A program made the translations under genes and the position numbers. A DNA stretch of 64,000 nucleotides from Apostichopus japonicus. Lineage: Eukaryota > Echinodermata > Holothuroidea > Aspidochirotida > Stichopodidae. Below are positions 17,598 through 53,692 of the stretch, in pieces. The stretch lies in the NCBI RefSeq assembly GCF_037975245.1, contig NC_092567.1, forward strand, positions 26,656,876 to 26,720,875. Reading direction: 5' to 3'. Every line of letters starts with the position of its first letter. The first letter of the stretch is position 1. The notes beneath the pieces are model-generated. The model saw only the letters and a list, made by a program, of their open reading frames with translations. It was not told the DNA's origin and did no database searches.

Positions 17598-20500
17598 ATG
17601 GCTTTGAGAGGAGTTTATTCCCTGCAATTTAATCAGGATCAAGGTAATGTATTTAATTCTGCTTTAATTTACAGTCCATTTACACTTAGAATTGTTGTTT
17701 TCAAACTTTATCCACCAAATGCTTAATTAGATATCTTGGTTGTATGTTGATAGGGGTTGATTGGGATTCTAGTATAATGTTTACTTATGTTCCCTTAAAT
17801 ACTGTTGTTAATAGGGGTTGATTGGGATTCTAGTATAATGTTTACTTATGTTCCCTTAAATACTGTTTTTGATAGGGGTTGATTGGGATTCTAGTATAAT
17901 GTTTACAGTATGTTCCCTTAAATACTGTTGTTGATAGGGGTTGATTGGAATTCTAGTATAATGTTTACTTATGTTCCCTTAAATACTGTTGTTGATATGG
18001 GTTGATTGGGATTCTAGTATAATGTTTACTTATGTTCCCTTAAATACTGTTGTTGATAGGGGTTGATTGGGATTCTAGTATATGTTTACTTATGTTCCCT
18101 TAAATACTGTTGTTGATATGGGTTGATTGGGATTCTAGTATAATGTTTAATTATGTTCCCTTAAATACTGTTGTTGATAGGGGTTGATTGGGATAATGTT
18201 AACTTATGTTCCCTTACAGGTAAATACTGTTGTTGATATGGGTTGATTGGGATTCTAGTATAATGTTTACTTATATTTTCCCTTAAATACTGTTGTTGAT
18301 AGGGGTTGATTGGGATTCTAGTATAATGTTTACTTATGTTCCCTTAAATACTGTTGTTTAATGTAAGCACTTAATGATTTGTTCGCTCTCTAATTTTTAT
18401 GAATATTGCAATGTAACTACTTTTGATTTCTCTTCTCTGGAAAATTATGAAAAAATAACTTTGTTTTACATTTTTTGTTTGATCAGGATGTTTCTCATGT
18501 GCGATGGAATCTGGTGTTAGAATCTATAATGTAGAGCCCCTCGCTCCAAGGCTTCGATTAGGTTTGTATATGAATTAATTTATTGACCACAACCATGTTT
18601 TGTACTGTTCAAAATAAGTGGAGACTTGTGGTAACTATGAAACATCATTTTCTCTAATCCTGTATATCAGATATATTCTTTGGTAAAATGTTGGCTCGTT
18701 ATTTTTCGGATCATCTATCGCTAATATGAAGCACTGAGCTATTCTTTTAAATTCAGTTTTAATACTCATAGGACTCTCACACACATCAAAGTTTGATAAA
18801 TTTCAGTCTTACTGTATTTTTAGTAAATTAATTGCCAATCAATTCCACAAATTCATACAGTGTATACTAATGATATCCAACTTCCAGTTGTGTAATAATG
18901 AACTGCCAATATCTGCTACTTGTTTCATATTTTAGAGAAAGATGTTGTTGGCAGTGTCACCAGAATAGAAATGCTCAATAGAACCAACCTAATTGCTATT
19001 GTCGGTAAGTAAAAAGATGACCCACCCATTAGTATCTTTATGTGACAGTGATGTAGACAAGTAGTTTTATCCAAGTAACTGGTACTTCAGAGTTTCTTAA
19101 TTCTGGAGTACCAGCGTCCAATTACTTCTCTCTTTTTTATCTGATTCCCAAACTTTAAAAATCCAAGAACAGAGTACAAATATGTTTTTATCAGAGTACC
19201 TTTGATGTATTTAATATAAAAGAGCTTTGTGCTTGTAACTGCTACTGTTGTTGATTAAACAATTGAATATAGAAATGATTTCTTGGACCTTGTTATTCTG
19301 TGCCAATTTCGGTCAATATGTCTCAATACAGTATTTTCAAAAACTCCTCATATTGGAATCGCATGTTAGAAGTATTTTTTTACTGAGATGAACATACTGT
19401 TTTGCAAGAAAGGCATTTTTAAGTGAGCAAAGGGTACTTGAAATTTAGTACAAGTACTTTAACATCTGAATATGAGTACCAAATGATGAGTACAGATACG
19501 TTTTAATACTCAAGTACTCAAAAGTGAGCACAAGTACTTGCAAAGATTATGCAAGTACTTGCAAAGATTATGCAAGTACTTTTTAAGTACAATGACGCTA
19601 ATATACAGTACGAAGCATGCCTGGCGTCAACCCTTGTGAAAAGCTCCTAAATTTTCCTCATGGAGTGATTTTGTAAGGCAAATTTAAATATTAAATGGGA
19701 AAATTGTAATTTTACCAAAAGGTGTTTCTCTTTTGTTAAACTTCTTTAGAAGTGAATATTAGGCTTTACTGGTTTACAATTTATGTTGCCTAATATTTTT
19801 CGCTTCCAATATGAAACATCCGGTTACATTTATTTTATTTCAGGAGGAGGAAAAATGCCAAAGTTTGATGAAAACACAGTCCTCATTTGGGATGATTTTA
19901 TGAAGAAATTTGTCCTAGAGTTGACATTTCCAGCTTGGGTCCTAAATGTGAAACTCAGAAAAGATAAGTAAGTATAGTAATGGTCATGTTTGCTTCGAAA
20001 GGCACGCATAATTTGTCTGAAAGTTGAAAAAAAAAAATTAAACACAACTGCTCAATTTTCATATATATTACATTGATTCCCTGTTCTGTTAACACCCTCC
20101 ACCTCTTCCCATACCCAAGTTTCTTTGTCTGTCTTCCTCCTTTTGTTTTAATAATTGAAGTAGTTAATTACAGTTTCCTCAATTTAGTCCTGTACTCTAC
20201 TAAATTTTGACCACATTGGAAGCACACTACAGCCATGATCAAAGCTTTAGTAGGTATTTCCTGAACTCTGTTTTACACATCTACTGTTTTATTTTCTTTC
20301 TCTCTCTCTCTTTAGGATAGTTGTGGTTCTCTGCAACCAAATATATGTATATAGTTTTCCAAATGATCCACAAAAGCTTTTCACATTTGACACCAGGCCA
20401 AATCCTCAAGGTAAAGAATTTTTTTTTCTTTTTCTTTTTTCTGACAGTTTCAAAGTAAATGTATACCTCTTGATTGTAGGTGTAATTTCTTCCTCCAAAA

Positions 20501-23500
20501 ATGTTACTCAGGTGATGGAAAGAGAAAGATCAAGAAGGAGGTGCGGTGGCCGGGGGGAATCAATATTAACGAGAAGGGGACAGATGGTTCTTCCTGATGT
20601 GATCAAACTTTCAGGTTGTCAGGCTTCTCAAGCTTTACATTATACAAGCACTGCATATTTGGTGACTCAATTCCATTTGTGTGTTACAGTAAGGTGACCA
20701 TATTTTCCTGACTGGAATCAGGGACATTTATTGCATGACTGATATGGGGGAGAGGTGGGGGAGAGGGGAAAGGTGCTTAGATGTAAAATGGTGATACTTA
20801 GAAGCACTTTTTAAATCAATTTTATTTTCAAAAATGTAGCTTTTTCTTAGATGAAATTTTCTTACTTTACGTGCTTCTTTAAGAGCTCGTGAGTTGCTCA
20901 TGCTCACACTATAAGTGTCGTTGTGTCGCCGTAGTTGCCAATTATATGGTCGAAAGATACTAGATCGATCTAGCATATTTTAACAGTGTTTCCACTTTAC
21001 ACTGGCCCACCTGAAATGCTGGTTATAAGTTCCGTTCTGCGACTGCACACGTGACTAAATTTTGTTTTTTAAATTATTTTACTAATAATGTGGGATATTT
21101 TCGAAATTCCTGAACAATTTGACGAATCGGGGACATTTTCGGGGACACTTGTTTATCAGGGACAGCAGACTGTAATCGGGGACTGTCCCCAAAAATCGGG
21201 GACGTCTGGTCACCTTATGTTACAGTATCTCCTTTGGTTATTCCTGCAGGTGTCTGTGCTCTTTCCCCTTCCAGTGATCACCAGATATTAGTCTTTCCTG
21301 GTCACAAGCAAGGCAGTATACAGATTCCAGACTTGAGTGTAGTAGAATCAGGCTTTTCCAGTTCTCCTGTCACTATCAATGCCCATCAGGGTGAAATCCA
21401 GTGTATTGCAATAAACCAAGAGGGTACACGCGTGGCAACAGCATCATCAAAGGTAACAAAAGGGGCAAGGGAAGGGGGACATTGAATGGATACTACATGG
21501 TGTTTACCTTTAAAGAGAGATCGGAGCAGACCAAGTTAAAGCTGTTATAGCAGTGTACTATGGAGACCCAACCAACTTGCATGTCTGAGGTTACTAGGTT
21601 TTTTAAAAAGGAAATTTTTCTTTGTTGGTTCCAAGAATAATGACTATCAACTTTGAGAGAGATTTTTATGAATACTTGCTTGTAACACATACTGTAACTG
21701 TATAAACATAACAGTTTTTCTTGAGGTGGCTGTATCACTATTGGTAGTTTCTCAGGAATGTCAGGGAGTTATATACAACCATGGAGGGCAATAGTTATGA
21801 AAATGAAGTCAAGGCACAACAAAACTTGCAAACAGACACCATGGCTGCGGCTATGAATGGCATCATGTGAGTGTGGTTGGGTTGAATAACAGCTGTGTGC
21901 ACCATTTGGACAAGTAGAAATACTTGAATTAGTTTCTGACATGGTGCCCTAGACTCCCTTGATTGCATTATTCATCTGGTGTGGTGGGTGAGGTGTGGAG
22001 TGTAGGGTCGGGCAGTGTGCAGTAGGGTTTGTATAATTGTAGTTGTGAATTGCTCAGCTGATTTTTCAACAAAGGTTACTTACATGTGTTGTTAAGAAGT
22101 TTTAAACAATAATGGAGGAGAGTTATATTTAATCTAGGGTTAAATTGCTGCAGCTATGCTTGTGCTGACACAACAACAGAATTACATGACTCTACTCTTT
22201 GACACATGTTTCCTTTTATGCAGGGGACATTAATCAGAGTATTTGACACTACATCTCGTAAGCAGCTAGTGGAGCTTAGAAGAGGATCTGACCCTGCTAC
22301 CCTTTACTGGTAAGGGGGACAGGTTATCCTTCAATAAAATCCTTGTTTGCATGTAAATCACAGCAGAAGGCAAAAGATTCATTGTAAACAATTGTTGCAA
22401 AAAACTGTTTTCTTACGTAGTTGTGAACTGCTTTATTTACATTGAAAGTACTTGTATGCCAGTTTTCCACCACATACAAGAGTCAGTAGACCTACAAAGT
22501 GTTAAAATAAATGATAATTGCAATTCATCCAAATGCTGCATTTTCCATGATGTTTTTGTCGCTTAAAGAACCTGTAACTGTTTCTATGAATTCTAAATCT
22601 TGTCCCTGAAATAGTTCTCACATTAGTGTCAAACAGATCCACTAGCAGATTGGACATTTTGGAAAAAAGAAAGTGTTCTGGCATTTAAAGTACTCCAGAA
22701 GTATATGTGGTTGCACCCCTTCTCTATGCCCTGATTTAAAATTTGAGGGGGGAGGGGGCATGAAATTTGGCTTACATCCATTCTAGGGAGGGGTCAAAGT
22801 GGGGGGGGGGTGGTAAGGGAGCTTCAGTGCAGAGTTATGCTATCATTTCCATCACTTCAACTACATTTGTGTATTACAATTCAATCTTGGCCAAGTAAAC
22901 AACTTAGGGTACATACAAGTGGTGCTTTGCCATCCCGTTTTGACCCAAACATTTCTGTAGCAGAACTCTGAACCCCCCTCCCCTCTTCACCACTAATTAT
23001 GGCTACTTCATTTTGATTTTGACTGCATTTTAGAGGCTGTAGAAAAAACATAGAATTCAGTTATTAAACAACATCAATAAGAAATTATTTTATGGGTTGG
23101 AGATTTTATTCTTGTCTGTTTTCTCTTGCTGCAGCATCAACTTCAGTAACGATTCATGCTATCTGTGTGCATCTAGCGATAAAGGCACTGTCCACGTATT
23201 TGCCCTGAGTAACACCACATTAAACAGAAGATCAACGTAAGTAGTCTCATGCTATCTGTGTGCATCTAGCGATAAAGGCACTGTCCACGTATTTGCCCTG
23301 AGTAACACCACATTAAACAGACGATCAACGTAAGTAGGCTCATGCTATCTGTGTGCATCTAGCGATAAAGGCACTGTCCACGTATTTGCCCTGAGTAACA
23401 CCACATTAAACAGACGATCAACGTAAGTAGTCTCATGCTATCTGTGTGCATCTAGCGATAAAGGCACTGTCCACGTATTTGCCCTGAGTAACACCACATT

Positions 23501-25416
23501 AAACAGACGATCAACGTAAGTAGTCTCATGCTATCTGTGTGCATCTAGCGATAAAGGCACTGTCCACGTATTTGCCCTGAGTAACACCACATTAAACAGA
23601 TGATCAACGTAAGTAGTCTCATGCTATCTGTGTGCATCTAGCGATAAAGGCACTGTCCACGTATTTGCCCTGAGTAACACCACATTAAACAGACGATCAA
23701 CGTAAGTAGTCTCATGCTATCTGTGTGCATCTAGCGATAAAGGCACTGTCCACGTATTTGCCCTGAGTAACACCACATTAAACAGACGATCAACGTAAGT
23801 AGTCTCATGCTATCTGTGTGCATCTAGCGATAAAGGCACTGTCCACGTATTTGCCCCGAGTAACACCACATTAAACAGACGATCAACGTAAGTAGTCTCA
23901 TGCTATCTGTGTGCATCTAGCGATAAAGGCACTGTCCACGTATTTGCCCCGAGTAACACCACATTAAACAGACGATCAACGTAAGTAGTCTCATGCTATC
24001 TGTGTGCATCTAGCGATAAAGGCACTGTCCACGTATTTGCCCTGAGTAACACCACATTAAACAGACGATCAACGTAAGTAGTCTCATGGAACGCAGACTT
24101 CCGAGTGGTACTTGGTGGTTGGTACTCAGCAGTTTTTTTCATTATAGAAGTATGTTCAACCTCGCAAAACAATGTGGTTATGCTAATGAGCTGTACTTTG
24201 AAATTTGTGTTCAAGCACTTTCATCATAACATTTTTGAGGTTTTGTCACAAGAGTACTTCTTAAAAGCCTCTGTGTATGATGGCATCTCCTAAACCAGCC
24301 ATACAGTGAAATTAACTAGTCTGTCGTACATTGGATAGTGGAGCAGTGTGTATTTGCCTATGGCTACGAACAAGATTTAGCCAGTTTTCAGTTGCTGGCT
24401 TTAGGCAACAGTACAGTTATTCAGTGTGTGACAGTTCATGATATGTCCATTTTCAACAAAGTTATTACCAATCCTGGAAGAAACAATGTTTGCATAATTA
24501 CGAGTTTTCACCATCAAAAACTAAAACCGGACAGTTAATTTAAGTTATGTCTTTTTCAGTCGGGTATAGTGTGCAGATGGTTTTAAAATCTTGGTTGGTT
24601 GGGATGTAGAATTCTCAATGTAACTTCTCTGGTTGACGTCCTAATGTAATAGATTGTAGCTCTTTTACCTATGACCTTCAGTTTATGCATTTTAGAACAC
24701 ATATATACATTTGTATATCCTGAATTAATTTCATTGGTGGTTGACAACAAGGGAAGTAAAACAAAGCCAGTCTTATACAGTCTGTTTACAACCTTTCCCT
24801 GTCGAAATATTCACTTTCTTTTAACAATTGGAAGTATTTTGTACATGAAGCAAGTTGGACATTATCAGCTGGGTATGTTCAAACTGCTAGAAGTTGTCAA
24901 ATGGTCATTTCCTCCAGGTTCTGACAATTCCGATTCTATGACAATATTGAGGATTGTTCAGATAGAAACTTCAATATCTCTGGGTGGGTAAATGCCCTTT
25001 GGGTGGTAATAAAAAACTATTTGAGTTTATATAGCTATTACAACTTTATTTTAGAGCATTTTTCATGGAAATCCTGATTGTTTTTTTTAGGATGATATAT
25101 ACAGCCAATCAAAACTCATGAAAACTGACTGTCACTCATTATTACATTTAAGTTCTTTTGTTTATTTCATGTTCACTCCAAATATAGACTTGCCAAGGTT
25201 GGAATCAAAGGCCAGTACGTGGAATCTCAGTGGGATTTGGCTAACTTTACGGTTTCGGCAGAATGTGCGTGTATCTGTGCCTTTGTGCAGCCGTCCTCAA
25301 TCATCGCAGCCTGTGTCGATGGAACTTTCCACAAATACGTATTCACTCCGGAAGGCAGTTGTAACAGAGAGGCATACGATGAATACTTAGAACTCGGCGA
25401 CGATGAAGAATTTTAA
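17598..25416 (+). CDS. WDR45: WDR45/WIPI4-like beta-propeller autophagy protein, complete
   Basis: Seen: nine exons, join(17598-17643, 18487-18561, 18936-19004, 19844-19967, 20316-20410, 21250-21452, 22224-22309, 23135-23236, 25188-25416), 1029 nt, 342 aa; every junction is GT-AG and in phase. Motifs include FNQDQG and [10 protein letters not shown] (blade 1), [38 protein letters not shown], then LRRG at residues 222-225, [27 protein letters not shown] and the acidic end DDEEF. Known: PROPPIN family; the L/FRRG motif binds PI3P/PI(3,5)P2, and WIPI4 acts with ATG2 in phagophore lipid supply. It resembles human WDR45 (360-361 aa) more than WDR45B, notably in the [10 protein letters not shown]...DDEEF end. 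Odd: exon 8 and its donor are repeated ten times, and the stop region is copied in the 3' UTR. Intron 1 has a 62-bp array and intron 5 a hAT element. Confidence 0.96.
17738..18357. repeat. ~62-bp minisatellite in WDR45 intron 1, about 10 copies
   Basis: The repeated block is GGGGTTGATTGGGATTCTAG plus a TATAATGTTTACTTATG segment and a CCCTTAAATACTGTTG segment. Copies are nearly identical, with one shortened copy near 18190. Confidence 0.95.
20690..21217. mobile_element. hAT-like non-autonomous element in WDR45 intron 5
   Basis: Ends TAAGGTGACCA (left) and TGGTCACCTTA (right). A perfect 8-bp duplication, TGTTACAG, lies at 20682-20689 and 21218-21225. No transposase coding. It ends only 24 bp upstream of the exon 6 acceptor, so its right target duplication lies close to the polypyrimidine tract. 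Confidence 0.92.
23154..24083 (+). repeat. 93-bp x 10 tandem repeat made from WDR45 exon 8 and its splice donor
   Basis: Unit starts TCATGCTATCTGTG and ends at GTAAGTAGTC. Copies start at 23154, 23247, 23340, 23433, 23526, 23619, 23712, 23805, 23898 and 23991. The first copy is the 3' part of the real exon 8; the other nine lie in intron 8. Each retains the AAC|GTAAGT donor. Copies are nearly identical: AGA in copy 1 is CGA in most others (both Arg) and TGA in copy 5. Confidence 0.97.
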
Positions 25417-25425
25417 ACTCATGTT

Positions 25426-25765
25426 ATATGTGGACTGAGGTACAGCTGTATCTGCCTGTGTTTGGTACTCTGGAAGGTATATGGCAATGATAGATGATGA
25501 AGAATTTTAATGGTGGATTGAACTCATGTTATATATTGAATGGGGTTTGTTGAACCATATCTTCTTGTGTTTGGTACTCTTCTGCCTGTATCTACCTGTT
25601 TTTGGTACCCAGTAGGGTATATGGCAATGATAGATGATGAAGAATTTTAATGGTGGATTGAACTCATGTTATATATGGAATGGGGTTTGTTGAACCATAT
25701 CTTCTTGTGTTTGGTACTCTTCTGCCTGTATCTACCTGTTTTACCATATACCCAGTAGGGTATAT
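25426..25765 (+). repeat. ~142-bp repeats in WDR45 3' UTR copying the stop-codon region
   Basis: The end of the coding region (GATGAAGAATTTTAA) recurs at about 25496-25510 and 25639-25653, with flanking TTTGGTACTCT and GGTATATGGCAATG blocks. Confidence 0.85.
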
Positions 25766-25899
25766 GGCACTGATAGACCTGTGTTATGTACAATGCTTAT
25801 GTAAATGTTAGTGGTGATGACTCGTATTCAATAGTTAACCAGACACTGCTCTTATTAATAACTGGGGTTTGTTCAACATCATTACAGTCTCCAGTGGCA

Positions 25900-28291: not shown

Positions 28292-28713
28292 CACGGGATA
28301 TTTGGAGTAAAGGGGAAATTTCCCTAGACCTGTTCCTTGTCCTAAACTCAATAAATCAAGTACAACTTCTGACAGAAAATATTAATAATACATGAAAAAA
28401 GAAACTGCTTAATCAAACATGTATGACTAATAAGGATTCTGGAAGGTTCATTAAAGGGGAACAAACTTGAAGGGGTTGGCCTATATAATGCCAATGCTGC
28501 AGTTATACCATTTTTCAATGCATGCATTTATGACTTTTTACTTATGGAGTAAAAACCTGGTCAATACTGGCAAGCAGCTGCTCTATAGGGAGCTCAACAT
28601 TTACTTTGGCAAACCCGCAACTACTGTATTGATTAGCCTTAAAATGTTCTTTGTTTATATAAGTTCTCCATTGAATCTCTTGTGTGGCTCAGGCCCGAGT
28701 TTGCCTAGTCCAT

Positions 28714-28978
28714 CAATGTGCAACCAGACTGACACAAACAGTTACCATGATCACTGAAACAATTCTCAATGTGCAGCCAGACTGACACAAACAGTTACCA
28801 TGATCACTGAAACATTTCTCAATGTGCAGCCAGACTGACACAAACAGTTACCATGATCACTGAAACAATTCTCAATGTGCAGCCAGACTGACACAAACAG
28901 TTACCATGATCACTGAAACAATTCTCAATGTGCAGCCAGACTGACACAAACAGTTACCATGATCACTGAAACAACTCA
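28714..28978. repeat. 53-bp x 5 tandem repeat overlapping the RTN4IP1 stop codon
   Basis: Units begin with CAATGTGCAGCCAGACTGAC at 28714, 28767, 28820, 28873 and 28926. The last unit contains the minus-strand TGA stop (28963-28965) and the final Leu-Phe-Gln codons; the other four lie in the 3' UTR. Confidence 0.95.
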
Positions 28979-31900
28979 GGTGCACCTCTTTCAAACCCCT
29001 TTGCTGATTCTCCAGCCACATTTACAACCACTTTACCCCGAGTGTGACCATTTTCAACCTTTTTAAATGCTAAAGGCAGGTCCTGATAATCAAAAACTTC
29101 ATCAATAGCAGGCTTTATCTTGCCATCCTCAGCCAGCTTAGCCACCTCTTTCAATGCAAATCCATTTGGTTGAGCAAATGCCCATCTGAATGTTGCCCCT
29201 GCCCCTGCAAATTTTCTTGACTTCTTAAAGAGTTCTAAACTTGATGAAAGTCCACCTAACAGAGGTCCCTTTTTGTCGATTTCATTGAGAAAAGGAGTTA
29301 TAAGTGTAACATATTTTGCATAAGCTTTTTCTTTGATAACCTTGATAGCTAAGTCTTCAACTGCTTCTGTGGCTGCATTGAGGATGAAATCATATTTTCC
29401 ATGTTTCAACAATTCTTGTAAAATGTTTGGTGATTTATAATCTACTGCATGGTGGGCTCCTAACCTATACATCAAATCAAAGGCATTTTCACTGCATGTT
29501 ACAGTTACATTGGCTCCCCATGCATTCAGCAACTGGACACCAAATGTTCCTATTCCACCAGAACCACCAAAAATGAGAGCTCTTTTGCCTAAAGCGTTTT
29601 GGGGACGAAATTTTGCCACGGCATAAGCTGCACTCCAGTTAGTAATTGCCACATATGGTATGGAAGCAGCTTCGATATGGGTGAGATTCTTTGGCTTGCG
29701 GCTAAGTTCTTCCATTCCACAGACAACATATTCTGCGTGGCATCCTGCTTTGACAGCATTGACAGAAGTCCAGACTTCATCATCAACTGCAACGTCTTTC
29801 ACTCCTTTACCAACATCGACCACTACGCCAGAGCAGTCACGACCAAGGGTCAATGGAAATTCATCTCCAGGTTTTACTCTGCGGGCTTTGTTCAGAAGGG
29901 CTGCACCATAACCACCTCTGGTCCTAACATCTATAGGATTGACACTTGCAGCATAGACCTGTGGAATAGATTAATATATAGAAACTTAAAATATATTTAA
30001 ACAGGGTTTCCCCTGGGATTTCTTGTGTGAAAGGTAACTGGCTGGTGACACTGGCGGACATGTGCATATCTGGGGGCATGGTCGCCTGAAAAATTTGTTA
30101 AACATCCTAATGTCAATCATCCTTACAATAAATTAGATACAAATGCTATGTTAAATAGGCAGAAGAACATTTATTTGTTGCTATAATTTAGTGTCCACAG
30201 CCAATTTTTCAATATTAGATGCTGGCATGGGTAAAAAAGTTCGATTTGCACAATCAGTGCATCTTTTATACCTTCAAGGGGCTAGCAATTTGAGGGGCAT
30301 TAGGTTTCCAAATCTTATTGAATTAAACCTGGGACACTACAGTATCTGCACAGCAACAAAGCCCTACCATGGTGAAAATGATTCTGGAATCACTTAATAA
30401 ACAAAAAGAAAGGGAAGACATTTTTCATGAGATAAATCTTACATCAGAGATGAAGGCACATCGTCAAAACAGGGTGATCTGCCAAATTATGCCATGTACA
30501 GCTCTCAGTTATAACCAAATATGGCGAGTTTTATGCCATGTACAGCTCTCAGTTATAACCAAATATGGTGAGATTTAGGGATGCACTGGATCCAAATTTT
30601 GGATCCGGCCGGAACCGGATTTTGCCGGATAGTACCTGAAATTCGGCCGGATAAAATCCGGCCAGAACCAGATTTTTTCATTACACAATTTAAGAAAATC
30701 ATTTATAAGAAGTAGAAGTATGAAACAAAGAGCAAATCTTAGGTGAGGTACACGCAAAGTATAAAGAAGGTGAAATTAAGACCCCATTTATGAGATTAAA
30801 TATGACTTGCAGTGGTGTAATCTACATTCTTTAATAAAATAACTACAATATAATTTTTGACAAGCTTGATACAGTATGTAAATTTGTTTGCTGGAAAAAT
30901 ACTGCATACTACAGTACCTATGAAGTTTCTTTTAAAATGGGAAGCTACATTTCACAAATCTCATACCTTATACTGAATAAAAAGATTATTTAATTGTTGT
31001 AATAACACTTACTATCTGGATTTAGAATTGTCTTTTATTATTCATTATCTGTAAAATAAAAAGCATTGTATCTTTCCAGAAGTGGAAGAAACTTCTTATC
31101 TATCTTTTATCTATCCTTTAAAATAGAATTGAATGTTCATTAGAACACAAAATGATTTAGGTTTTTTTCATGAACTTTTAGGAGCTTTCAATATTATACT
31201 TTCAATATTATACTGATGAAGGCTGCAAGAAATGATTTCACTGCAAACTGTATTTGTTGTATATAGCTTCATATTATTACAGGTGGCATACTCCTATTAG
31301 AGTCTATATCAAACCGCTCGATTGTTCTCCTTCAGGAAAAGTGCCAAAAAGCAGCAGGGGAACATCTTTTGTGACTTGTTATCAATCATAATCTAGTTTT
31401 TTTGTGGCTTGCATGTTGAAGAGCATGAATGGAAGTACATGTGGTGAGAAAATTGGGTCAACTGAGGCAATTTTAGACCCCTTTAGGCCTCCCGGGAGCA
31501 GCGTAGGAAATTTGTTTACCACTGAGTGAAGAGGTTTGTTTACAAGTGACGAAAACTTCCGGCTCGGATAGCAAAAATTCTTCACGGTCATGGTACGGAA
31601 AATTGATGGTGCCATGAATGGCCAACTTGTCAGCTATCTGTTGTTTACAAATCCCGATGATCCAGTTTTGGCAAAGAACACCTTCAATTCTCTTTCTTTA
31701 TTCAAGTAGAAACTTAACAGTTGCACTGGAGTGACATGCAATATCAGTTTAACATGTTCCAAACAGTTCAGGAATACATTGGGGTATGTCCTGTGGGTCA
31801 GTTTGGGAGGAATCAGCTGAGCTAAACAAAAGTAGTTTTCATCACTTTTCAGAGCCAGAGACGAAAAAACCCTCACCGCTGACCCTTCTCTGGATGATGT

Positions 31901-34900
31901 TTCTGCAGGTAGGGCAAGCCAGACCAAGTGGACTGTGATCAGGGATACCAATAATACCTGCAAGAATCATAGATGCACCCAAATTGGTCAAGCTTATCAA
32001 AATTGGTGACTGGAAGTGTTGTTGCAGACATAGACCTGGTTACTGCTTACACAGTATTGCTCATATGTGTATTTACACACTGCACCTTGCATACTGAAAT
32101 CTCTGAAAATACATCTTTATGGACCTAAAATGATAATTGCATAGAATTCTGTTGTGGTTTATATTGTGACGACTATGAAAAGTATCATTTTGGTAAAAAA
32201 AAAAAAAATCATTTTTCACTTAAGGTGGCATACTCCTATTAGAGTCTATATCAATCCGCTCGATTGTTCTCCTTCAGGAAAAGTGCCAAAAAGCAGCGGG
32301 AGAACATCTTTTGTGACCTGTTATCAATCATAATCTAGTTTTTTTGTGGCTTGCATGTTGAAGAGCATGAATGGAAGTACATGTGATGAAAAAAATGGGT
32401 CAATTGAGGCAATTTTAGACCCCTTTAGGCCTCCCGGGAGCAGCGTAGGAAATTTGTTTACCACTGAGTGAAGAGGTTTGTTTACAAGTGACGAAAACTT
32501 CCGGCTCGGATAGCAAAAATTCTTCACGGTCATGGTACGGAAAATTGATGGTGCCATGAATGGCCAACTTGTCAGCTATCTGTTGTTTACAAATCCCGAT
32601 GATCCAGTTTTGGCAAAGAACACCTTCAATTCTCTTTCTTTATTCAAGTAGAAACTTAACAGTTGCACTGGAGTGACATGCAATATCAGTTTAACATGTT
32701 CCAAACAGTTCAGGAATACATTGGGGTATGTCCTGTAGGTCAGTTTGGGAGGAATCAGCTGAGCTAAACAAAAGTAGTTTTCATCACTTTTCAGAGCCAG
32801 AGACGAAAAAACCCTCCCCGCTGACCCTTCTCTGGATGACGTTTCTGCAGGTAGGGCAAGCCAGACCAAGTGGGCGGTGATCAGGAATACCAATACAACC
32901 TGCAGGAATCATAGATGCACCCAAATTGGTCAAGCTTATCAAAATTGGTGACTGGAAATGTTGTTGCAGTCGTAGACCTGGTTACTGCTTACACAGTGTT
33001 GCTCATATGTGTATTTACACACTGCACCTTGCATACTGAAATCTCTGAAAATACATCTTTATGGACCTAAAATGATAATTGCATAGAATTCTGTTGTGGT
33101 TTATATTGTGACGACTATGAAAAGTATCATTTTGGTAAAAAAAAAAAAAATCATTTTTCACTTAAGGTTGCATACTCCTATTAGAGTCTATATCAATCCG
33201 CTCGATTGTTCTCCTTCAGGAAAAGTGCCAAAAAGCAGCAAGGGAACATCTTTTGTGACCTGTTATCAATCATAATCTAGTTTTTTTGTGGCTTGCATGC
33301 TGAAGAGCATGAATGGAAGTACATGTGATGAAAAAATTGGGTCAATTGAGGCAATTTTAGACCCCTTTAGGCCTCCCGGGAGCAGCGTAGGAAATTTGTT
33401 TACCACTGAGTGAAGAGGTTTGTTTACAAGTGACAAAAACTTCCGGCTCGGATAGCAAAAATTCTTCACGGTCATGGTACGGAAAATTGATGGTGCCATG
33501 AATGGCCAACTTGTCAGCTATCCGGCGATGGGTAGCGTTTAGCTAGTGAAAACTTTTATCTAGACTTAGAGACCACATTACTTTTGTGATTTAGTGTGTA
33601 AGTCAATGGGGCTTTTAATGGGCGTATGCTACCTTAAGCAAAAATGCCAAATTTTTCATTTTAAGTGCTAGAAGTCCCAATTTTGGATCAAAGTAGTTGC
33701 TATGGTGTGTAAAAATGGTTTTCAAGCAAACGTCAGAAAATTTCAAGCTTGGGTGATCTTTACGCATAAATTAGTATTACAGCCTTAAAGTACCACAAAG
33801 AGCATATGCGTTTCCATACATTAGGCTAGAATAGCCTTCTGAGCATTTCTAACCAGTTTTCCTCCCCAATAAATATTGGGTCATTAAGCCTTGACCTACC
33901 AAAGCTTCCGTAGTATGATTCCTGCCTTGAATCTGCTAAGTTAGGTGCCAAATGCACGAAATTCAAACTCCTTCAGAATCAGAACAAAATGCCTGCAGTG
34001 TGTTTGACGTGAACGACTAAGTTCAGTGAAATTTGACATCTGTGGGCACCTAAAGTACATGGTAATCATACTTTGGGTTATTTTTGCTAAAGTTGGAAGT
34101 ACCTGGTGTTTAACTAAGGACAAAAACTCAGTTTCAATGCATGAAATACCCCTAATGTTGTTAGCTTAGGCCTAGGCCTCAGGTTCATAATGGCGCTACG
34201 TTAGTATCCTAGACCAAGTCTACACCAGCTGTAACACAATGTTGTATGAGGTCTGTATCCTAAGTGGAGTGGCTGCTGAGGGCTAATACCTTGCACAGAG
34301 AATGTTTTGAGTCTTATTTAGCAAATAATCCACAAAGGTATGCATTTTCTGCTTCTGCCAATGTGCATCAAGGGGTTTTTGAGCCTACTCACTCCTCATT
34401 AGCTTTCTGTTGTTTTGTTAATTTCAGAGAAAGTTGATGTGCTAAGTCCTCAGCATGCACAGCGATATACTTTGAATGGGTGTGGTATCAATGGACTCAA
34501 TTGGTTAGATGAGGTAACAACAAATCCCAAACAACTCTGACAGCAGAAAGAGATATCCTGATGCTTCCATGGGAGATCTACTGTAGTAACTATAGGAACC
34601 AGTGCTTGCCACCAATGGAAAATAAGGTAATTTGACGTTGTTGTTCTCTGCCGAGCAACAAATTTGAATGTTTTATCATGAAATAGGCCCCCCTATCCAC
34701 CTCTCTTCTCTTATAACTGTCTTTAATACATTGTAACAACCTACTGTACAGTATGCACAAACCTTTAAATGGACTGGATATGCTATTGAGGTGAACAGTG
34801 TATCTAGATAGCATTCCAGTAAGCTTTCCTTTTGACTACTGTAATACTGTTACAGTGAGGCTGTTGTTTACAAATCCCGATGATCCAGTTTTGGCAAAGA

Positions 34901-36763
34901 ACACCTTCAATTCTCTTTTTTTATTCAAGTAGTAACTTAACAGTTGCACTGGAGTGACATGCAATATCAGTTTAACATGTGCCAAACAGTTCAGGAATAC
35001 ATTGGGGTATGTCCTGTGGGTCAGTTTGTGAGGAATCTGCTGAGCTAAGCAAAAGTAGTTTTCATCACTTTTCAGAGCCAGAGACGAAAAAGCCCTCACC
35101 GCTAACCCTTCTATGGATGATGTTTCTGCAGGTAGGGCAAGCCAGACCAAGTGGACTGTGATCAGGGATACCAATAATACCTGCAAGAATCATAGATGCA
35201 CCCAAATTGGTCAAGCTTATCAAAATTGGTGACTGGAAGTGTTGTTGCAGACATAGACCTGGTTACTGCTTACACAGTATTGCTCATATGTGTATTTACA
35301 CACTGCACCTTGCATACTGAAATCTCTGAAAATACATCTTTATGGACCTAAAATGATAATTGCATAGAATTCTGTTGTGGTTTATATTGTGACGACTATG
35401 AAAAGTATCATTTTGGTAAAAAAAAAAAAAATCATTTTTCACTTAAGGTGGCATACTCCTATTAGAGTCTATATCAATCCGCTCGATTGTTCTCCTTCAG
35501 GAAAAGTGCCAAAAAGCAGCGGGAGAACATCTTTTGTGACCTGTTATCAATCATAATCTAGTTTTTTTGTGGCTTGCATGTTGAAGAGCATGAATGGAAG
35601 TACATGTGATGAAAAAAATGGGTCAATTGAGGCAATTTTAGACCCCTTTAGGCCTCCCGGGAGCAGCGTAGGAAATTTGTTTACCATTGAGTGAAGAGGT
35701 TTGTTTACAAGTGACGAAAACTTCCGGCTCGGATAGCAAAAAATCTTCACTGTCATGGTACGGAAAATTGATGGTTCCATGAATGGCCAACTTGTCAGCT
35801 ATCCGGCGATGGGTAGCGTTTAGCTAGTGAAAACTTCTATCTAGACTTAGAGACCACATTACTTTTGTGATTTAGTGTGTAAGTCAATGGGGCTTTTAAT
35901 GGGCGTATGCTACCTTACAGTAGTTGTATTATTTTGGTTGATCTTTAGAAACAGTGGGTCAGACCATTGAGAAAATTAAATTAAACATGTTAAACCTAAT
36001 TTTTCCTTACTTTGAATGTTTTAATTAATTGTTGGAAATGGTTTACATTGATTTAAGTTAATACCAACACCTTTTTAAGGAATTATTCAGGCCAGATTTT
36101 GAAAAAGATCCAGCCAGATTTTGAAAAAGATCCGACCGGATTTTGATATAAATCTGGCCGGAACCGGATAATTGCTCACTATCCGGCAGGATACTCCGGC
36201 CGGACCGGATATCCGGTGCATCCCTAGCGAGTTTTATATTAATTTGATGAATAAAAATAGTGATTTGTTGGTGGCATTCGACTAAGGTGTGATGTTGTAA
36301 ATTATGTTAAACTTGTAAGCTAGTGTGCCATTTTCCATATAACCATGTGGGCTATATTACAATGGATATAACTCTACAAGACAATTACCTTGATGAGAAC
36401 ATCATGTGGCTTTGATACAGTAGGTTTTAGCGTCTCAACCATCTGTAGCACTTGGTTTCCTCCATACTTTCCGATTTGCCATGCAGAAGATGTTAACGGT
36501 TCGGCTGATTGTGTTGAGTAAAACCTGCTTCTTCCGTAGACTGCTTGATTATGTATGGGACGAGTTCCACGACAATGATTTGTACAGATTGACGATGAAA
36601 ATAACATTAGCCTCATAGGCCTAGTGTTACTCTTTGCTTTGGTGGAGACGTAAACATTTGCACTTTCATTACGAAGAGAACTTTCCATACTCTTACGATG
36701 GAGAACTTCACGAAATGAAATAGTCTTTGAAAGAAGAACACATCCCTGACGCATGCATACCAT
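28963..36763 (-). CDS. RTN4IP1: RTN4IP1-like mitochondrial NAD(P)H oxidoreductase, complete
   Basis: Seen: two coding exons, complement(36389-36763) and complement(28963-29958), joined in phase 0 (LIK|VYAASVNP), about 456 aa against 396 in human. Exon 1 has a basic, Ser-rich, acid-poor N-terminus that fits a mitochondrial presequence, then SAWQIGKYGG and PHDVLIK. Exon 2 carries ASVNPIDVRTRGGYG, FPLTLGRDCSGVV, the nucleotide-binding loop GGSGGIGTFG (about residues 256-265), LGAHHAVDYKS and HTRGKVVVNV. Known: MDR-superfamily quinone-oxidoreductase-like protein of mitochondria, implicated in coenzyme Q synthesis; human mutations cause optic atrophy (OPA10). Odd: nearly the whole enzyme lies in one 996-bp exon, and the single intron (6.4 kb) is filled with repeats. 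The first ATG of the frame (36763) is used; starts further in are possible. Confidence 0.92.
30576..36226. mobile_element. Large hAT-like composite in the RTN4IP1 intron
   Basis: Inverted ends TAGGGATGCACTGGATCC (left) and GGTGCATCCCTA (right), both followed inward by CCGGCCGGAACCGGAT-like sequence. Flanking 8-mers GTGAGATT and GCGAGTTT match at 6 of 8. No transposase coding was recognised in its 5.6 kb, most of which is the repeat complex at 31282-35914. Confidence 0.7.
31282..35914. mobile_element. TIR element with internal 942-bp tandem duplication
   Basis: Left end GGTGGCATACTCCTATTAGA and right end TTAATGGGCGTATGCTACC are inverted repeats. A 5-bp repeat, TTACA, flanks the complex (31277-31281, 35915-35919). 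Left ends recur at 31282, about 32224, 33166 and 35448; right ends lie at about 33635 and 35914. Order: L-A-B, L-A-B, L-A-R, about 1.2 kb of unique DNA, B-L-A-R. Repeated small minus-strand ORFs (77 and 105-116 aa) track segments A and B and match no family I know. Confidence 0.75.
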
Positions 36764-39094: not shown

Positions 39095-41115
39095 ATGGCA
39101 AGCCGTTTTAACATTTACCTCGCGATTCGACTTAAGTCGAATACATTTCACTTAAGTGGAATTCAATTTCACTTAAGCAGAATACTATTTAACTTAAGTG
39201 GAATTCTATTTCACTTAAGTGGAATACCATTCCACTTAAGCTTAATTGTATTTTACTTAAGCTGAATTCATCAACTTGTCACTGCATTTTACTTAAGCTA
39301 AATTCTATTTCACTTAAGTGGAATTGCATTCCACTTAAGTGGAATTGTATTCCACTTAAGTGGAAATGCATTTCACTTAAGTGGAATTGTATTCTACTTA
39401 AGTGGAATACAATTCCACTTAAGTGGAGGGTCCTGTCTATTTCACTTAAGTGGAATACAATTCCACTTAAGTGGAAATGCATTCCACTTAAGTGAAATGT
39501 GATTGGATAGTCTATTTCACTTAAGTGGAATGTGATTGGCTAGTCTATTCCACTTAAGTGGAATGTGATTGGCTAGTACATTTACCGCCAAATTTTACCC
39601 ATGCCTTTGCGCGCCATTATAAACAACTTGCCGCGATACGTGTACGTACGTACGTGGTGTCGATATGTGCACAATGAATATCGGCTGTCCATCGGGATCC
39701 AGCTAGCACTTAACATCCGTGCAAGGTGTGTACGTACGTACCTGACCTGGTACCTGACGAATACCATTACCAAAATAAAGCCATGGCAAATACATTATAA
39801 GTGGTTGGAGCTACAGCCGAAAACGCATTGACAAGGGCAAGAAAACGTTTTACTTTTTGTGGATTTGGGGTTTTGGATGGAATCTTTTATTTCGTCAAAA
39901 GTTTCACTATCTAAAAAATTACAAATTCTGCCTTTATTACTTAAACAAGATCAGTGGCGTAGGAAGGTACTTTTGAGTGGGGGGGCTGAAGACTGATGGC
40001 CGGCCTGGGGGAGGGGTCTAAGGGGAGGGGGTGTCCCCCTCCCCTTTGGATTTTTTTTGCATTTCCAGGTGGCCTCAGATGCAATTTGGTGCAATATAGC
40101 ACACTTCAACACCCACTCCATTTTGTAAAGAATTTTGCATTTTCACCTGGCCTTAGATGCAATTTGGTGCTTCAAATGAGATTTTTTTCTCATTTGGAAA
40201 TGAAAAAGGGGTTTTCTGACTTGCGGAGCGGGGGGGGCGGAACGATACTTCCGCCCCCCATATTTTTCACTGGGGGGGGCTGGCGCCCCCCCCAGCCCCC
40301 CCCCCCCGGTTCCTACGCCCTTGAACAAGATGTAAGTCGCCTCTGTTGTGCATCATACTGATTGTTCCCCTGTGCAAGTGAGGAAACAACACTTCGAATT
40401 GTGTCTCTAACAACAATTATTTGATCGCATTCCAGCAATGTTAGATGTGAATGATTAGCCGTAGCCATGATGTACACGTGCAACGAGGATCGACTAAATC
40501 ATCATATGTGATGAGCAATTGAATGCGTTACGACGAACAATACCCTAAATTGTATTTATATGTAAGCCACATATCAACATTTCCACTTAAGTGGAATTGT
40601 ATTTTACTAAAGCAGAATAGAATTCCACTTAAGTGAAATTGACGCCCAAAAGATGTTATTCCACTTAAGTGAAATTGAATTCCACTTAAGTGAAATTGAA
40701 TTCCACTTAAGTGGAATACATTTCCACTTAAGTGGAATTGTATTTCACTTAAGTGGAAATGCATTCCACTTAAGTGGAATTGTATTCCACTTAAGTGAAA
40801 TAGATGGGCTATTTAGCTTAAGTGGAATACAATTCCACTTAAGTGGAAATGTATTCCACTTAAGTGAAATACAATTCCACTTAAGTGGAATGCAATTCCA
40901 CTTAAGTGGAATTCATTTCCACTTAAGTGAAATAGAAATGTCCATTTCTACTTAAGTGAAATTGAATTCCACTTAAGTGAAATTGAATTCCACTTAAGTG
41001 GAATACATTTCACTTAAGTGGAATTCCATTTCACTTAAGTAGAATGTATTCCACTTAAGTGAAATGTATTCGACTTAAGTCTAATTGCGAGGTAAATGTT
41101 AAAACGGCTTGCCAT
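39095..41115. mobile_element. Foldback-type element with arms of tandem TTCCACTTAAGTGGAA palindromes
   Basis: Outer inverted repeats ATGGCAAGCCGTTTTAACAT (left) and their complement (right, ending GGCTTGCCAT). CGAGCT flanks both sides (39088-39093, 41117-41122). The left arm (39130-39566) has 19 CTTAAG sites and the right arm (40580-41080) 22, mostly within the 16-bp palindrome at about 21-bp spacing. The central 1 kb is unrelated and carries a hAT MITE. No coding. Known: foldback elements have long inverted arms with internal tandem repeats. Confidence 0.8.
39952..40323. mobile_element. hAT-like MITE nested in the foldback element
   Basis: Ends CAGTGGCGTAGGAAGG (left) and GTTCCTACGCCCTTG (right). 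A perfect 8-bp duplication, AACAAGAT, lies at 39944-39951 and 40324-40331. It shares its interior with 38615-38867 in reverse orientation. Confidence 0.93.

Positions 41116-41760: not shown

Positions 41761-53692
<11,932 letters not shown>

Follow-up and report, generated by a model that had tools for sequence, protein, structure and literature searches.

A ten-copy, mirage-type minisatellite at the exon 8 donor of WDR45 in Apostichopus japonicus, probably young and mostly silent

Introduction

Tandem copies of exon-intron borders, termed 'mirages', have been described in amphioxus, in the Adh3 gene and in the globin genes BflGb6 and BflGb9, and the data reported for them suggested that regular splicing is left undisturbed (PMC3087553). 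In human, variable internal tandem repeats at exon-intron boundaries have been described within segmental duplications (PMC2812944). Here, we describe an array that multiplies the end of exon 8 of the WDR45/WIPI4 gene, together with its splice donor, into ten consecutive copies. It lies in a 64,000-nucleotide stretch of the Apostichopus japonicus genome (NCBI RefSeq assembly GCF_037975245.1, contig NC_092567.1, positions 26,656,876 to 26,720,875 of the forward strand), which we call the window and whose own numbering is used throughout. The array consists of border-spanning, tandem, minisatellite-like copies that carry splice signals; the amphioxus mirages, with units of 10-160 bp, are likewise minisatellite-like and border-spanning, and many of them carry splice signals as well.

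Results

An intact WDR45 gene with ten copies of one exon-intron border

The host gene had been labeled WDR45 in the initial annotation, and the label is right because human WIPI4 is a far better match to the 342-residue conceptual product (best match in PDB, E 1.1e-147) than WIPI3 is (8.1e-97); residues 2-342 align to residues 5-360 of human WIPI4, and the LRRG motif is present. The coding gene occupies 17598-25416 (+) in nine exons (17598-17643, 18487-18561, 18936-19004, 19844-19967, 20316-20410, 21250-21452, 22224-22309, 23135-23236 and 25188-25416, all on the + strand), whose spliced coding sequence of 1029 nt (342 codons plus the stop) is free of internal stops. Exon 8, when ended at its first donor, measures 102 nt and closes in phase 2.

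At the exon 8/intron 8 border, a 93-bp unit is repeated in ten head-to-tail copies at 23154-24083 (+). Tandem Repeats Finder (TRF) called the array at 23154-24088 with a period of 93, 10.1 copies and 99% matches, and the register is exact: units start at 23154 and then at 93-bp steps, and the array closes with a 5-bp partial eleventh copy, TCATG, at 24084-24088. The unit comprises the last 83 nt of exon 8 and the first 10 nt of intron 8; it begins 19 nt past the authentic exon 8 acceptor, and the acceptor itself is not copied. Identity among the copies averages 0.990 (45 pairs of ten copies), and only three unit positions vary. At position 53, copies 8 and 9 have C (changing Leu to Pro) and the remaining copies T; at position 92, copy 2 has G and all others T; and position 76 (23229 in copy 1) is A in copy 1, which reads CAGAAGAT, T in copy 5 and C in the other eight, so that this single position, with a base private to copy 1, separates copy 1 from copies 2-10. 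The array is not a chance match.

Each copy provides one of ten identical CAACGTAAGT donors, that is, AAC/GTAAGT (the slash marking the border), with the GTs at 23237, 23330, 23423, 23516, 23609, 23702, 23795, 23888, 23981 and 24074. The authentic donor, GTAAGT of copy 1, stands at 23237-23242 (+); position 23236, at which it had earlier been placed, is the last base of the exon. The ten donors were scored with consensus matrices that, like the U1 sequence used below, had the eight introns of this gene as their only check. Each donor reaches 8.10, within the top 1.3% of the 3851 GTs of the window; of the eight real donors of WDR45, donor 1 included, five score lower. The exon 8 acceptor is strong as well (10.90). 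By conceptual splicing, donor 1 gives the full 342-residue protein, whereas with any of donors 2-10 translation ends after the same 267 residues, at an in-frame TAA (23238-23240, +). The distance from this TAA to the end of the extended exon is, from the coordinates, at least 89 nt whichever of donors 2-10 is used. The central elements of the initial annotation, namely the ten consecutive copies, the identity of the ten 5' splice sites and the immediate stop on reading through the first of them, are thus borne out by the TRF call, the exact register and the conceptual splicing.

A probably young and mostly silent exon-edge minisatellite

The reading we favor, with a probability of about 0.76, is that the array is a young, mostly silent exon-edge minisatellite of the mirage type, of which the first copy alone is used, with the extra copies tolerated in intron 8. 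The founder unit is flanked on both sides by TCATG, once in the exon (23154-23158) and once in the intron after the last copy, a feature absent from the initial annotation. The probability of a shared run of at least 5 bp at two random breakpoints is 0.006 by formula and 0.008 by an empirical control of 61301 offsets of 93 bp (with 23000-24200 excluded and the other arrays of the window kept), and such a 5-bp microhomology fits a founding tandem duplication. That is, a 93-bp segment (the last 83 nt of exon 8 and, with the donor, the first 10 nt of the intron) may have been duplicated in tandem between the two TCATG runs, and amplification to ten copies would then have proceeded by local duplication of units. 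The variant that copies 8 and 9 share suggests such turnover and looks like one local duplication step, and the 99% identity suggests that the array is either young or homogenized. The surroundings are rich in arrays, since 22 hand-picked ones cover 9.4% of the window (chosen from 63 TRF rows, with sub-period rows and others, e.g., 39130-39499 and 40581-41087, omitted). A 93-bp segment placed at random in the WDR45 gene has a 19% chance of crossing a junction and a 9.6% chance of crossing a donor; hence, a single border-crossing array needs no special cause.

With one end of the unit in the exon and the other just past the border in the intron, any number of copies leaves the coding sequence intact, provided that splicing proceeds from donor 1. 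Copy 1 would thus have stayed in its native place, with all extra copies landing in intron 8, where they are probably close to neutral. Most likely, the strong acceptor of exon 8 favors the closest donor through exon definition, yielding an exon of 102 nt. Transcripts that spill over to donors 2-10 would all carry the same early stop and would probably be removed by nonsense-mediated decay.

It is important to note that several results weigh against this reading. As the ten donors are identical and strong by the matrix, the donor itself gives copy 1 no advantage, and the U1 pairing energy of these donors (-5.2 kcal/mol) is the second weakest among the gene's eight (range -5.1 to -8.8), which makes leakage past donor 1 conceivable. 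Nor does folding help. Structure in the array region is weaker than in shuffled versions of it (z 4.26; for three stretches of one unit each, z 1.95-2.52). Mean openness is 0.40 at donor 1 and 0.33-0.56 at the other nine, and every one of donors 4-10 exceeds donor 1 (0.45-0.56). We therefore rejected the idea that RNA structure hides decoy donors 2-10, given that the region folds worse than shuffles and the later donors are more open. Finally, short array remainders that could be taken as microhomology are not general among the 22 arrays: the remainder is 10 or less in ten of them, and six of these ten have periods of just 10-22 bp, where a remainder means little.

Alternative roles for the extra donors

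Among the alternatives, the one that fares best, although we consider it unlikely, is that the nine extra donors act as a dosage device, diverting a share of transcripts that depends on copy number to the decaying stop form and thereby setting the level of WDR45. Much of the anatomy described above would suit such a device: none of the nine downstream donors differs from the first, all nine lead to the same stop with at least 89 nt between the TAA and the exon end, the decoys outscore five of the eight real donors of WDR45 by the matrix, donor 1 counting among the eight, and folding leaves the downstream donors open. The near-identity of the copies points instead to a young or homogenized array, and in the amphioxus cases regular splicing appeared unimpeded (PMC3087553).

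The base that sets copy 1 apart bears on two further proposals. The initial annotation had taken the synonymous difference of copy 1 as a sign that this copy alone is under coding constraint. We rejected this argument, since 58 of the 249 possible changes in the exon part of the unit (23%) are synonymous; moreover, there is a single difference, which may have arisen in either direction, and the exon-derived part of copies 2-10 holds just two further variants, one a stop and one a Leu-to-Pro change. Constraint confined to copy 1 is compatible with this pattern of variants but cannot be demonstrated by it.

The same base, 8 nt before the donor, gives CAGAAGATC in copy 1, CAGACGATC in eight copies and CAGATGATC in copy 5, and GAAGAT of copy 1 accordingly reads GACGAT in the eight copies and GATGAT in copy 5. 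GAAGA-type motifs act as splicing enhancers, and a more elaborate proposal builds on this: the purine-rich, enhancer-like GAAGAT would mark the authentic donor, the decoys would derive from a copy that had lost the motif, amplification being tolerated only from there, copy number would set the leak into the stop form, and occasional 60-nt cassettes (below) would lengthen a membrane-facing loop. We regard this combination as rather improbable. WDR45 has four occurrences of GAAGA in 993 exon positions vs. one in 5308 intron positions (two arrays left out), an exon bias that ranks second (tied) of 1024 pentamers, with an uncorrected P of 0.003 at which about three of 1024 would be expected by chance, for a motif that was picked after it had been seen in copy 1. 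Against the proposal, ACGAT of the decoys is likewise exon-biased (3 to 0), AGAAG shows no exon bias (2 to 10, P 0.59), and coding composition alone could explain the bias of GAAGA. RAGAAG is listed as overlapping three published enhancer sets (PMC4039745); copy 1 has CAGAAG and hence is no exact match to this entry of the table.

The initial annotation had also noted that each downstream copy contains CATCTAG as a possible acceptor, turning each copy into a potential cassette of 20 codons. The arithmetic of this claim holds: from CATCTAG to the next donor there are 60 nt in each copy (in copy 2, for instance, CATCTAG at 23263-23269 followed by 60 nt at 23270-23329, + strand), and each of the cassettes of copies 2-10, inserted singly, keeps the frame, eight of the nine being open and that of copy 5 stopped by a TGA at 23601-23603 (+). 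The acceptor, in contrast, is weak. CATCTAG scores 4.60, a value reached or beaten by 15.4% of the 3672 AGs in the window, and seven of the gene's eight real acceptors score 8.53-13.78, the eighth, that of exon 9, scoring 4.77. Furthermore, splicing from donor 1 to the AG of the adjacent copy 2 would define an intron of just 33 nt, probably too short for splicing, vs. 126 nt to the AG of copy 3. Cassette use would therefore involve CATCTAG of non-adjacent copies, adding 20-residue units after residue 267 in a flexible propeller loop, that between strands C and D of blade 6, which faces the membrane in other members of the family. The insertion point falls inside residues 259-278, which remain unaligned between the matched pieces of WIPI3 chain 8zqg. 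Removal of loops 75-80 and 264-281 (the latter connecting strands C and D of blade 6) left WIPI3 with roughly wild-type binding to ATG2A fragments (PMC7264293); by analogy, a 20-residue insertion in the corresponding WDR45 loop might be tolerated. In WIPI2b and yeast Atg18, the blade 6 C-D loop folds into a helix that binds membranes (PMC11387628), and a precedent for the splicing step exists in a potato gene that gained an intron through a boundary-crossing tandem duplication (PMC4974935). On the other hand, the inserted piece would probably duplicate a beta strand, and the Leu-to-Pro change in copies 8 and 9 together with the stop in copy 5 leaves no sign of constraint on the cassettes. We consider their use very unlikely.

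Equally improbable is an assembly artefact, with one or few copies in the true genome, because collapse of short reads removes copies rather than adding them and because variants at three positions mark copies 1, 2, 5 and 8/9. A draft genome does offer a precedent for misassembly in the amphioxus mirage of BflGb6, which seemed aberrantly assembled (PMC3087553).

Other arrays and elements in the window

Several further features of the WDR45 gene were observed. Intron 1 harbors a 61-bp array in ten copies (17745-18358, +), one copy of which reads CTTACAGGTAAAT at 18213-18225, where an acceptor-like and a donor-like motif are juxtaposed. Exon 9 (25188-25416, +) has the lowest-scoring real acceptor of the gene, and 97 nt upstream of it lies an AG at 25091 (+) that scores 10.89; read by eye, splicing at this AG would run into a stop. 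The 3' untranslated region holds a second, older array at 25446-25777 (+), with a 140-bp unit in about 2.1-2.3 copies; it carries two extra copies of the end of the coding sequence, GATGAAGAATTTTAA, followed by a related stretch past a short insertion.

Outside WDR45, an open reading frame at 28963-29970 (-) encodes a zinc-binding dehydrogenase by Pfam, presumably RTN4IP1-like, and a 53-bp array of 4.9 copies (28713-28974, -) starts within the last 12 nt of this frame and thus spans its stop codon. An aspartyl-protease gene (Pfam PF00026) contains a 391-nt inverted repeat (48862-49252 vs. 50397-50787, 96% complementary, 1144 nt apart), in which much of an exon and its flank is copied backwards farther downstream in the gene. 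Three very similar open reading frames (FLQV..LVSLITVHLVW...; 31634-31966, 32576-32908 and 34836-35189, -) look like one repeated element; the first of them, the only one tried, had no Pfam match. Two arrays, at 39125-39577 and 40581-41087, are built around the palindromic motif TTCCACTTAAGTGGAA, and the heptamer AGGCCTA occurs 24 times in the window vs. 4.4 expected (about 5-fold over) and may be common in echinoderms. A scan of the window for transfer RNA genes returned none, and no relatives of WDR45 were confirmed in viral contigs.

Discussion

With ten identical donors at one border, the WDR45 array constitutes a natural experiment on how identical 5' splice sites are ranked by position only. 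Further, exon-edge repeats are a proposed source of new introns. A coding exon here doubles as the terminal unit of a minisatellite, so that the stop of copy 5 or the Leu-to-Pro change of copies 8/9 could, at least in theory, be carried into the expressed copy by unequal exchange. Three arrays of the window, the one at the WDR45 donor and the two at coding-sequence ends, would fit a filter under which an array at a coding edge persists if its surplus copies come to lie downstream in noncoding DNA, although a test of such a filter would need more than three cases.

Among the matches listed in open-licence PubMed Central, there was no report of the WDR45 array or of an echinoderm case, and a search for literature on identical donors, with awkward wording, found nothing. 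The text of an amphioxus huntingtin paper uses neither 'mirage' nor 'minisatellite', and the examined parts of a paper on C. elegans minisatellites contain no exon-edge array. The human DDX3Y minisatellite lies at a transcription start site, again with no exon-edge array in the parts of the source examined. A looser parallel is provided by earthworm metallothionein, in which duplicated fourth exons are described as missing from transcripts.

Three known kinds of duplication differ from the WDR45 array. The first is intron gain through duplicated proto-splice sites: in Drosophila, as at WDR45, intragenic tandem duplication is a source of splice sites (PMC2891723). The Drosophila duplications involve AG/GY proto-splice sites within coding sequence, whereas at WDR45 the border itself was multiplied and its donor, AAC/GTAAGT, is not AGGT, which excludes it from the AGGT type of gain. 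The second is the UBC array, which likewise consists of tandem units with splice sites at fixed spacing and the frame kept (PMC10809524). UBC units are whole coding monomers, however, whose AGGT sites serve as both donor and acceptor, while the WDR45 donor, AAC/GT, lacks the AG and is a distinct site, 60 nt away from the acceptor-like motif, so that we rejected a dual-specific array of the UBC type. The third is mutually exclusive duplicated exons, which we also rejected because the unit starts inside exon 8 and the real acceptor is not copied.

In the potato RdRp gene, as at WDR45, the duplicated segment spans an exon-intron border and may thereby be a source of new splice sites (PMC4974935). 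The potato duplication affects the acceptor side, with a new intron observed, whereas at WDR45 it is on the donor side and known from sequence alone. The human border repeats are, like the WDR45 array, minisatellites at an exon-intron border that are able to alter splicing (PMC2812944); they have units of about 30 bp in four copies on average and are supported by transcripts, in contrast to an array read from the genome assembly. The closest likeness is to the amphioxus mirages, and in particular to that of BflGb9, which duplicates the 3' border of an exon as the WDR45 array does. BflGb9 has a duplicate, and BflGb6 has 6 and 3 units in two haplotypes with 81-100% identity, vs. ten copies with a mean identity of 99.0% on the donor side of WDR45. 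Hence, the WDR45 array adds a donor-side, ten-copy case to the known mirage kind.

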